A DNA stretch of 25,598 bases from Candidatus Tectimicrobiota bacterium (GTDB taxonomy: Bacteria > JACPSX01): contig JACPSX010000054.1 in the NCBI GenBank assembly GCA_016193065.1, positions 1-25,598 on the forward strand, given 5' to 3'. Positions 7,803 to 23,574 of the stretch are shown in pieces (within the stretch, counting starts at the first letter, position 1; every line of letters begins with the position of its first letter). Under the pieces are notes generated by a model. That model searched no databases, had not been told where the DNA came from, and saw only the letters and a program-made list of their open reading frames with translations. A program made the position numbers and the translations under genes.

Positions 7803-8393
7803 TTAGTTAAGCTGGTAGGATATGAGCTGCCGGTATGTTTTTAGCACCTTTTCCGGGTACTCGGGACTTCCTAGGCTTCCGTTGTAGGCTGCCAGGGCCA
7901 CATCCAGGGCTTTGTAGCGTTGGAGGTAGTGCTTCAAGATAGAAATTCCCATCCACACATTGGTCTCGGGCTCGAAGATCGCCCGGGGGTCTGCCCCTAA
8001 CTCGGTGGTCCAAAAAGGCATCACCTGCATCAACCCCTTGGCCCCGCGGGGAGAAACAGCCTGAGGGTAGCCGGCGCTCTCCACTTTAATGACTGCGACG
8101 ACAAGCTCCCAGGGGATATTGCTGGCCCGTGCATAGCGGACCACGGAACCTGCCACCTGGTCTGCCAATTCCGCATCCATCCCCAGCTCTTTCTGCAGCA
8201 CCCGGGAAGAAATCCTGGCCTCACCGCGGTTTAGAAGTTCGTCGAGCGGGATCCCCCTCTCCGGGTACATTCCCGTCGCGGCGGGGAAGTAGAAGATGCT
8301 AAGGACCAGGAGCGCGATCACACTCCCCAAAAGTCCCAAATTGCACTTTTTCACCCAGTTCAAGAGGTTTTGTACCCATTTACTGGTTTTCAT
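7803..8393 (-). CDS. Membrane-anchored lytic transglycosylase (SLT family)
   Basis: A 196-residue enzyme that cleaves the glycan strands of peptidoglycan, forming 1,6-anhydromuramic acid ends. An N-terminal transmembrane helix (~18-36) anchors it with the catalytic domain in the periplasm. The domain from ~75 has VIKVESAGYPQAVSP with catalytic E105, then GAKGLMQVMP and ALAAYNG, the standard goose-lysozyme-like SLT motifs. There is no LysM or other wall-binding domain. The ATG at 8393 follows GGAGGAGCTG; an ATG 15 bases upstream overlaps that ribosome-binding site and is rejected. The leader carries a c-di-GMP-I riboswitch and a terminator, so expression is probably set by c-di-GMP. It converges on oppF. 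Confidence 0.93.
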   Translation of the reverse strand: MKTSKWVQNLLNWVKKCNLGLLGSVIALLVLSIFYFPAATGMYPERGIPLDELLNRGEARISSRVLQKELGMDAELADQVAGSVVRYARASNIPWELVVAVIKVESAGYPQAVSPRGAKGLMQVMPFWTTELGADPRAIFEPETNVWMGISILKHYLQRYKALDVALAAYNGSLGSPEYPEKVLKTYRQLISYQLN

Positions 8394-8413
8394 GGTCAGC
8401 TCCTCCATTTGCC

Positions 8414-8457
8414 AAAAAGCCGGGCTGCCGATCCATTTGCTTCGGCAGCCCGGCTTT
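8414..8457 (-). terminator. Riboswitch-controlled intrinsic terminator
   Basis: AAAGCCGGGCTGCCGA (minus strand, 8457-8442) pairs perfectly over 16 bp with TCGGCAGCCCGGCTTT (8431-8416) around a 10-nt loop and is followed by a run of five U. This is a textbook rho-independent terminator lying only 20 bases before the lytic transglycosylase ATG. Its 5' arm is the conserved 3' side of the riboswitch aptamer, so the two folds exclude each other. Confidence 0.92.
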
Positions 8458-8530
8458 CGGTCCCTTGAATTTAGGGAGGACGACCCGTGGCTTTGCGCCC
8501 CCCAATTTCTTGGGGTTTGCCTTTTCGGTC
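8441..8530 (-). ncRNA. Cyclic-di-GMP-I riboswitch (GEMM-I) in the lytic transglycosylase leader
   Basis: Read on the minus strand, the conserved GEMM-I core is present in order. GGCAAACC lies at 8521-8514. The P2 stem CCCCAA/TTGGGG (8515-8510 and 8505-8500) is closed by a GAAA tetraloop. GGCGCAAAGCC (8499-8489) follows, then ACGGGTC, a CCCT/AGGG hairpin, GGGACCGA, and the 3' block AGCCGGGCTGCCGA (8455-8442). The base equivalent to ligand-contacting G20 appears to be G (…AAAGGCAAACC), which favours c-di-GMP over the cGAMP-type variant. Because the 3' block is also the terminator's 5' arm, ligand binding should block termination, making this an ON switch. The direction of control is inferred from the overlap. 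Confidence 0.88.
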
Positions 8531-8887
8531 TTTAGGAGCCAGCCCAAGACCGCCTTCTTGATCACCGTCCCTGGCAATTCAGAGAAGTTTTCCATCTCAA
8601 AACATTATGATTTTTCTACGCTTATGTACTTTTTTTCTCCTTGGCCTTAAGGCCCAGCCCCATGAACAACAGTTCTCGGGTGATCTGCTGCTACGGGGTT
8701 TTTGAGGTTCCTTCCCCCCGGGTACCCTCCGGGCGTGCGAAAGGAACGATCTCTGAAAGAATGAGCGGGCTGCTGCCTGGCCTTTTCACTCCCTCATTCG
8801 ATTCTGGCCAGGTGACGCCATTGTGACCCAAGGGAGGGGGAAAAGTCAACCTCTTTCCACGCAAAAAAGCCGGATTTATTTATGATC
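8531..8887. other. Non-coding stretch upstream of the riboswitch
   Basis: No gene is supported here. It holds several inverted repeats: CGGTCTT/AAGACCG (around 8526-8552), the palindrome GGCCTTAAGGCC (8643-8654), GTTCCTT/AAGGAAC (8707-8713 and 8741-8747) enclosing CCCGG/CCGGG, and CCTGGCC/GGCCAGG (8776-8782 and 8816-8822). It should contain both the end of the hemW transcript and the promoter of the riboswitch transcript. An A-rich segment near 8590-8640 has CATAAT on the minus strand but no good -35. Confidence 0.5.
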
Positions 8888-14791: not shown

Positions 14792-14907
14792 CCAGTCACC
14801 TCCTTCCCATTTCCGAGATCTCCGTTAGGCCCGCTTCCCCTTCCTGTCCCCAAAAACTCGTCCCGGACTCCCCGGAATCTGAAATTTCCCATAGGAAGCG
14901 AGGCTCT

Positions 14908-15942
<1,035 letters not shown>

Positions 15943-22088: not shown

Positions 22089-22194
22089 TAGCCCCGATCC
22101 GAAATGATAACCATGGCAGCCAATCCGCGATTCTACTCCCCGCTGCAATTCGTTGGACGGGGCTGACTCCCGATCTTTTTTCGGATCGGGGTTA
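22089..22194. repeat. Inverted-repeat element between DUF2232 gene and rplI (dispersed repeat copies 2 and 3)
   Basis: The arms 22089-22104 (TAGCCCCGATCCGAAA) and 22179-22194 are complementary at 15 of 16 positions plus one G-T. The left arm belongs to a 19-bp motif also found at 7607-7625. The right arm contains the DUF2232 stop codon. A compact alternative hairpin, CCCGATC (22169-22175) with GATCGGG (22184-22190), uses part of the same right arm, so the two folds cannot coexist. The left arm ends 10 bp before the rplI ribosome-binding site. Confidence 0.65.
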
Positions 22195-23163
22195 GCGCCT
22201 GAGCTTCCGAGGATCCATCCAGATGTCGAAGATCCCCAGGATGGCCAGCAGGACCACACCCCAGGGGGTGCCCAGGAGGAAGAAATAGCAAATCACGCGC
22301 AGGATCCGGGGGGAGCCCCAACGGTCGAACAGGGAACTCAGGATCCCGAGCCCCTGCAGCAAGTAGATTAACAGAAAGATGATCAGGCCGTTGAGCCCGG
22401 CAATCCGCACGGGATCCACGGGGACCAGCAGAGCAAAGCCGCTGGCGATCAGCCCCCACACCACAAAGTCGGGCGCGTGCCAGGACTTGAGGGAGTGGGA
22501 GAGTAAGGTTTGCCCTCCGTCCGGGTACCCGACTTTCGGGTGTAGCCACAAGAACCGTAAGAGGCCGTAGTTCAGAAAGGCCACGCTGGAATACCAGATC
22601 ACGCCCAGGGCCGGCAAGGCGCGCAGGAAAAAGCGAGCGGCCTCTGCCGCCTGCTCCCGGACCCCTTCCACCTGTTCCGGCGTCATGCCCATGCGCTGGT
22701 AGAGTTCCAGGCTCATCTGAACCACGGCGTCCACCTGTTCGCGCGCAAACGTGATCGGGTCGAGCCGGCTCACCCACAGGAAAACAGCCAAGGCACCGAA
22801 CCCGACCAGAAACGGGAAGACAACTCCGGCCGTCAGCACGGCCGCCGGTGCTCGTTTCCGCCTCACTCCCTCCCCGATAATCAGCGCTAACATACCATAT
22901 TCCATGACAAAGAGGATTGCCGAGTCGATCCCTCCCCACAAATAGGCCGCCGCGCTGGCAAAGGCAGTGGTCAGGACTCCGGCGGCCGCCCCTCGGCGCA
23001 CATGAAGATAGAGGAGCGGCAGGGGAGTTAGAAGGGAGAGAAAAATGCCCAGCCCCGGCAGGAGCAGCGGGGACCGAAAGAGTAGGACGGACAGGCCCCC
23101 TGCCATGGCAAGAGATAGCGGGTGTCCGACTGGCCACTTCGCACTAGGAAAAATGCCGCTCAC
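22192..23163 (-). CDS. DUF2232 (YybS-like) multi-pass membrane protein
   Basis: A 323-residue integral membrane protein with about eight hydrophobic helices. The pattern (LSVLLFRSPLLLPGLGIFLSL near the start; IWYSSVAFLNYGLLRFL and LNGLIIFLLIYLLQGLGILS near the end) and the position between rpsR and rplI match the DUF2232/YybS family, whose function is unknown. It may be an energy-coupling S-component-like or regulatory membrane protein, but that is not established. The start is GTG at 23161-23163 with GGGAAG upstream. A 334-residue frame overlaps it on the same strand but is arginine/proline-rich and not membrane-like, so it is a shadow. Confidence 0.85.
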   Translation of the reverse strand: MSGIFPSAKWPVGHPLSLAMAGGLSVLLFRSPLLLPGLGIFLSLLTPLPLLYLHVRRGAAAGVLTTAFASAAAYLWGGIDSAILFVMEYGMLALIIGEGVRRKRAPAAVLTAGVVFPFLVGFGALAVFLWVSRLDPITFAREQVDAVVQMSLELYQRMGMTPEQVEGVREQAAEAARFFLRALPALGVIWYSSVAFLNYGLLRFLWLHPKVGYPDGGQTLLSHSLKSWHAPDFVVWGLIASGFALLVPVDPVRIAGLNGLIIFLLIYLLQGLGILSSLFDRWGSPRILRVICYFFLLGTPWGVVLLAILGIFDIWMDPRKLRR

Positions 23164-23190
23164 TGTTTTCTTCCCGAGGCCAGGGCCTGC

Positions 23191-23248
23191 CCTGAGCCCA
23201 GCCGAAGGGCCTGTCCTGCACCCACCGCTCTCCTTCGACGCGCTCAGG
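23191..23248. repeat. Inverted pair of CCTGAGC…CGAAGG repeats
   Basis: CCTGAGCCCAGCCGAAGG (23191-23208) faces CCTTCGACGCGCTCAGG (23232-23248), which reads CCTGAGCGCGTCGAAGG on the other strand. The pair can form a hairpin. This 'CCTGAGC…GTCGAAGG' motif recurs in intergenic DNA of many uncultured bacterial genomes, as I recall. It lies in the 159-bp gap between rpsR and the DUF2232 gene. Confidence 0.65.
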
Positions 23249-23322
23249 AGACAAAGTTTCCCGCTGCCAGGAAGCAGAGCCGCCTCGTTGAAATTTCCCG
23301 CCTGCGATTTTTGTGTTCGGGG

Positions 23323-23574
23323 CTAGTGCTCCACTGTGAACGGCATCAGCGCCATATTGCGCGCTCTCTTGATGGCCACGGTGAGCTGCCGTTGGTGCTT
23401 TGCACAGTTTCCCGAAATGCGCCGGGGAATGATCTTCCCGCGCTCGGTGATCAGACTGCGGAGCCGCTTGATGTCCTTGTAGTCGATGTATTCCACTTTG
23501 TCGGCGCAAAACCGGCAGATTTTGCGGCGTATGAATCGTTTTTTCTTCTTCTTGCTCTTGCTTACTTGAACCAT
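23323..23574 (-). CDS. rpsR: 30S ribosomal protein bS18
   Basis: An 83-residue small-subunit protein. The sequence [21 protein letters not shown], followed by [20 protein letters not shown], is diagnostic. C20, C23, C57 and H60 form the CxxC…CxxH pattern of the zinc-binding type of bS18, indicating no adaptation to low zinc here. The ATG at 23574 follows GGAGGAATC. It lies downstream of ssb, separated by a 7-bp tandem repeat tract. Confidence 0.97.

Follow-up and report, generated by a model that had tools for sequence, protein, structure and literature searches.

A c-di-GMP-I riboswitch with an overlapping terminator as a probable transcriptional ON switch for a lytic transglycosylase gene of Candidatus Tectimicrobiota

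The window (the whole 25.6-kb stretch of DNA that was analyzed) contains, on its minus strand, a gene encoding a membrane-anchored SLT lytic transglycosylase, preceded by a leader with a c-di-GMP-I (GEMM-I) aptamer and an intrinsic-terminator hairpin. The positions of these features are given in Table 1.

Table 1. Features of the lytic transglycosylase locus (window coordinates).
Feature	Position	Strand	Basis or location
c-di-GMP-I (GEMM-I) aptamer	8440..8530	-	RF03167 68.4 bits; RF01051 68.6 bits
P2 with GAAA loop	8515-8500	-	within aptamer
Intrinsic-terminator hairpin, perfect 16 bp, 10-nt loop	8416..8457	-	sequence and folding
Terminator U-run UUUUU, then GGC	8414..8418	-	sequence
Shine-Dalgarno GGAGG, 8 nt before ATG, outside terminator hairpin	8402..8406	-	sequence
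Possible -10 CATAAT upstream of aptamer	8604..8609	-	sequence reading
Membrane-anchored SLT lytic transglycosylase, 196 aa	7803..8393	-	PF01464 75.7 bits; hydropathy

The SLT domain was recognized well above the PF01464 cut-off (75.7 versus 21.3 bits), and hydropathy analysis indicated a single N-terminal hydrophobic helix at about residues 19–39. The protein contains the motifs GLMQVMP and AYN, and its catalytic glutamate is intact (Glu105 aligns with Glu478 of Slt70), as in SLT-family (family 1) lytic transglycosylases. The domain, the helix and this residue bear out an earlier note on this DNA, which had placed a membrane-anchored SLT enzyme downstream of the riboswitch. The neighborhood of the gene comprises hemW-like, secDF and opp-type ATPase genes. 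Since the next real genes beyond it, encoding two opp-type ABC ATPases, lie on the opposite strand, the riboswitch appears to control a single gene.

The aptamer was identified by Rfam cmscan as RF03167 (c-di-GMP-I-GGC; 8530–8440, minus strand, 68.4 bits, E 1.9e-14, gathering score 59 bits), which was the sole gathering-level match in the window. The general c-di-GMP-I model RF01051, which the earlier note had named as the covariance-model check of its claim, matched the same site and strand with 68.6 bits (gathering score 35 bits). In a scan of the site with relaxed thresholds, other families gave chance hairpin matches only, e.g. to microRNAs. The minus-strand leader reads, from 5′ to 3′, GACCGAAAAGGCAAACCCCAAGAAAUUGGGGGGCGCAAAGCCACGGGUC...GAAAGCCGGGCUGCCGAAG, followed by CAAAUGGAUCGGCAGCCCGGCUUUUUGGCAAAUGGAGGAGCUGACC-AUG, and all the GEMM-I core motifs quoted in the earlier note, which named no strand, were found in it. 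The ligand contacts of the Vc2 aptamer are G20, A47 and C92 (PMC4744006); the model alignment puts their equivalents at positions 8521 (G), 8494 (A) and 8445 (C). G20 is present in 166 of 176 aligned GEMM-I matches, A47 in all and C92 in 174. The conserved positions of the aptamer are all intact, and the RNA fits the c-di-GMP-I class in every testable feature. This riboswitch is thus an ordinary, textbook member of its class, and its target gene alone is mildly unusual.

The 5′ leader also contains a competing expression platform, i.e. a terminator that shares the 3′ strand of the aptamer. The arms of its stem, AAAGCCGGGCUGCCGA and UCGGCAGCCCGGCUUU, occupy positions 8457–8442 and 8431–8416, and the former comprises the 3′ strand of P3, C92 and the 3′ strand of P1. 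Both the perfect 16-bp stem and its overlap with the 3′ block of the aptamer had been described in the earlier note and are present. When the whole window was Markov-shuffled 60 times, no perfect hairpin longer than 12 bp arose, compared to 16 bp here, and the folding energy of the hairpin with its flanks is −36.7 kcal/mol. A promoter/terminator pattern scan with a loop limit of 8 nt passed over this structure, whose loop is 10 nt long. The U-run previously reported does follow the hairpin (8418–8414), but three of its five U residues sit inside the 16-bp stem, paired with AAA. The element therefore reads, functionally, as a putative GC-rich 13-bp stem followed by U5 and then by GGC, and its termination efficiency is uncertain, with five U only, three of them able to pair into the stem. 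The gap between the hairpin and the ATG (8393) measured 22 nt rather than the 20 given before; the Shine-Dalgarno sequence and start codon are properly spaced behind the hairpin. The CATAAT sequence upstream of the aptamer may be the -10 element of a putative promoter; no convincing -35 was seen near it, and it was not reported by a consensus promoter scan.

Because the 5′ arm of the terminator is the 3′ strand of the aptamer, the two structures are mutually exclusive, and the ligand is therefore predicted to cause read-through. This anatomy backs the ON switch proposed in the earlier note, and we consider it probable that the GEMM-I aptamer and its overlapping terminator act as a transcriptional ON switch for the one SLT gene. 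In the absence of c-di-GMP, the downstream complementary arm would capture the 3′ strand of the aptamer (3′ side of P3, C92 and 3′ side of P1), a strong hairpin would form and the polymerase would halt at the U-run ahead of the gene. With c-di-GMP present, the aptamer would fold around its ligand via G20, A47 and C92 and retain its 3′ strand, so that transcription would read through and the transglycosylase would be made. Ligand binding and ligand-dependent termination are both steps that we infer. When leader prefixes of increasing length were folded, the aptamer P3 fold had the lowest energy at about nt 86–107, and the terminator took its place when the second arm emerged. In the full-length leader, the terminator state was ~20 kcal/mol better than the aptamer state. 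A kinetic switch, with a ligand that would have to act before transcription of the second arm, would be expected to show such a preference.

The identity of the ligand was assessed from the contact positions and from the cyclic dinucleotide synthases of the genome. RF03167 is the best Rfam model by E-value, and the short P3 region of the window RNA is like that of many members of this family. However, the RF03167 consensus carries G at the A47 position (CGCGAAGCC), whereas the window RNA carries A (CGCAAAGCC); we read the name “GGC” as the consensus residues at positions 20, 47 and 92. Since RF03167 is also the best-ranked model for many ordinary A47 aptamers, this label is not diagnostic. Membership in the c-di-GMP-I-GGC family was therefore rejected: the score lies above the gathering value (68.4 versus 59 bits), but the distinguishing G is absent. 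The cGAMP (GEMM-Ib) riboswitches reportedly have A at position 20 (attributed to Kellenberger 2015), and this position is G here. In the enzymes that make cGAMP, termed Hypr, an Asp that contacts guanine in ordinary GGDEF enzymes is replaced. The genome, which is 86% complete, encodes six GGDEF domains, five of them with an intact GG(D/E)EF motif; no Hypr substitution was found among the six, all of which keep the ordinary Asp in GxxxGD. Cyclic di-GMP is the expected ligand because the canonical G/A/C contacts occur together with ordinary GGDEF domains. It is quite improbable that the aptamer senses another cyclic dinucleotide, either 3′,3′-cGAMP, as in the Geobacter GEMM-Ib riboswitches, or the ligand of the GGC variant. 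The first rank of the GGC variant in Rfam would speak for such a specificity, as would the evolution of cGAMP specificity in some GEMM-I aptamers (PMC8835794). The former point is offset by the equally high RF01051 score and by the many A47 aptamers that rank best under RF03167, while cGAMP specificity is disfavored by G20 and by the lack of a Hypr GGDEF in the search of GGDEF-type synthases of this 86%-complete genome.

The output of the switch could also differ from that proposed. In the ligand-bound, read-through fold, the freed arm GGCUUUUU may pair with the Shine-Dalgarno region GGAGGAGCU and block translation, so that the output could be weakened or inverted. A 9-bp hairpin over the Shine-Dalgarno sequence (−9.8 kcal/mol) is indeed predicted once the terminator is open, and the Bc1 riboswitch of Bacillus thuringiensis shows such incoherent control of transcription and translation (PMC11218506). 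An OFF or incoherent output is nevertheless improbable: the helix contains many G-U pairs and is weak compared to the 16-bp terminator, ribosomes that initiate translation may compete with it, and since the gene stays terminated when the ligand is absent, the net effect of the ligand is likely still positive. We regard as very improbable a terminator that is constitutive (locked OFF), or a decaying riboswitch, with no ligand response in the cell. This possibility draws on the strength of the terminator, which surpasses every other overlapping hairpin in the 174 GEMM-I loci and is favored at full length by the margin noted above, and on the failure of Bc1 to respond to c-di-GMP in vivo (PMC11218506). 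A terminator-favored equilibrium is, however, what a kinetically controlled ON switch is expected to show, and the intact conserved positions of the aptamer, together with the intact SLT catalytic residues, give no sign of decay.

The ON reading has a parallel in Geobacter, in which GEMM-Ib riboswitches with terminator platforms are ON switches, e.g. that of GSU1761/pgcA (PMC6456294). In G. sulfurreducens, deletion of the cGAMP synthase lowers the expression of genes located behind GEMM-Ib, and the platform has been read as ligand-stabilized antitermination (PMC6456294). The regulon also includes a lipoprotein transpeptidase operon (GSU0181-0183) encoding wall-modifying proteins (PMC6456294). 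The window locus resembles this system in its terminator platform, its predicted ligand-stabilized antitermination and ON output, and its wall-modifying target, and differs from it in ligand: the Geobacter riboswitches are cGAMP-selective, whereas G20 and the lack of a Hypr GGDEF point to c-di-GMP here. With the Vc2-type RF01051 riboswitches the window RNA shares the core of sequence and structure, the GAAA-capped P2, the residues G20, A47 and C92 and the location in the 5′ leader, ahead of an envelope gene; there is no difference in the aptamer, and the target here is a single lytic transglycosylase gene. The transcript of the peptidoglycan hydrolase EagA of Erwinia amylovora is raised by c-di-GMP (PMC7705223), but EagA is an M23 endopeptidase, not a transglycosylase, and riboswitch control has not been reported for it. 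The C. difficile “cell wall hydrolase” CD0183 was rejected as a precedent, being linked to an antisense sRNA and not to a riboswitch. No published GEMM-I ahead of a lytic transglycosylase gene was found in the literature searched, which covered a minority of subscription papers, so that a firm claim to a novel target is not warranted.

Overlapping terminators recur among GEMM-I riboswitches. A hairpin of at least 9 bp that overlaps the aptamer and has a U-rich tail was found at 41 of the 174 GEMM-I loci, compared to 6 expected from shuffled downstream sequence, a contrast that is indicative only, as the loci are related to one another. One of these 41 loci is from a near phylum (L024).

The aptamer of the window is the only GEMM-I found in this 86%-complete genome, which is the sole representative of its phylum in the genome set searched. 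The nearest matches of its full-length SecD are in other phyla, and the protein is at most 61% identical to any from the 386 sampled genomes; such low identity, with no other phylum member in the set, suggests a deep-branching, poorly sampled lineage.

GEMM-I was absent from the loci of all 80 nearest SLT homologs (mostly from Zeta- and Gammaproteobacteria). In the phyla nearest by SecD, GEMM-I riboswitches are present, but ahead of other genes, whose products, named by reading their translations, include a FlgG-like protein (L120), a pilin-like protein (L121) and a response regulator (L015). A downstream gene for a membrane-anchored SLT protein on the same strand was detected at two of about 170 GEMM-I loci (L210 and L213), which belong to one genus of another phylum (genomes G469 and G470). 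Their GEMM-I scored 70.8 bits, and their SLT protein is 34% identical to that of the window. These loci share with the window a GEMM-I upstream of the SLT gene on the same strand, but differ in that the gene is part of an apparent operon, in which it follows a short membrane ORF and the gene of an exported hypothetical protein of ~245 aa (no family assigned). Neither of them showed an overlapping terminator with a U-rich tail. They represent a second, independent linkage of GEMM-I with an SLT gene; the pairing is therefore rare, not unique.

The earlier note had suggested that the enzyme opens the wall for a pilus, secretion or envelope machine. This idea has no local backing as regards pilus or secretion machines: no pilus or secretion gene adjoining the SLT gene was seen in the neighborhood, and no equivalog-level family of flagellar, T3SS or pilus transglycosylases was matched, all NCBIfam matches lying far below their cut-offs. 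The genome does encode the type IV pilus secretin PilQ (TIGR02515, 424 bits versus a cut-off of 284) and a second secretin, both on other contigs, which is also where four other SLT-domain proteins are encoded. That this SLT enzyme helps to seat a pilus or secretion machine is speculation, while its physiological role is presumably to couple wall remodeling to c-di-GMP. It is unlikely, but conceivable, that in this isolated lineage of phylum rank c-di-GMP has a single RNA effector, which serves only to permit the production of a wall-cutting enzyme, e.g. for the seating of the type IV pilus encoded on other contigs; if so, the sessility signal would have peptidoglycan cleavage as a direct output. 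Elsewhere in the same genome, a GAF-GGDEF protein whose active site is degenerate (GADRF for GGDEF) is encoded beside an MreB-like gene (L117; G000:C128:6971-7438), which may hint at a connection of c-di-GMP with cell shape.

The RNA itself offers nothing new on riboswitches, and wall enzymes controlled by cyclic dinucleotides are known from other bacteria. The interest of the locus lies in the direct RNA-level control that c-di-GMP is expected to exert over an enzyme that cleaves peptidoglycan, a clean example that can be tested. The link between the sessility signal and wall remodeling is little documented, and the locus comes from a poorly sampled lineage with only one GEMM-I found.

Two further observations concern other parts of the window. 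The tgt gene (tRNA-guanine transglycosylase; 14906–15942, minus strand) shows an apparent frameshift: its N-terminal part corresponds to the ORF at 15031–15942 and its conserved C-terminal part, in another frame, to the ORF at 14906–15502. A short repeated stretch (MRKIREKIV..) is located at the end of tgt, and the frameshift reflects either an assembly error or a broken gene. At about 23120–23330, between an rpsR-like ORF (23323–23574) and the next gene (22192–23163), ORF translations (PGPALSPAEGPVLHPPLSFDALRRQSFPLPG) resemble an intergenic repeat element, not coding sequence.
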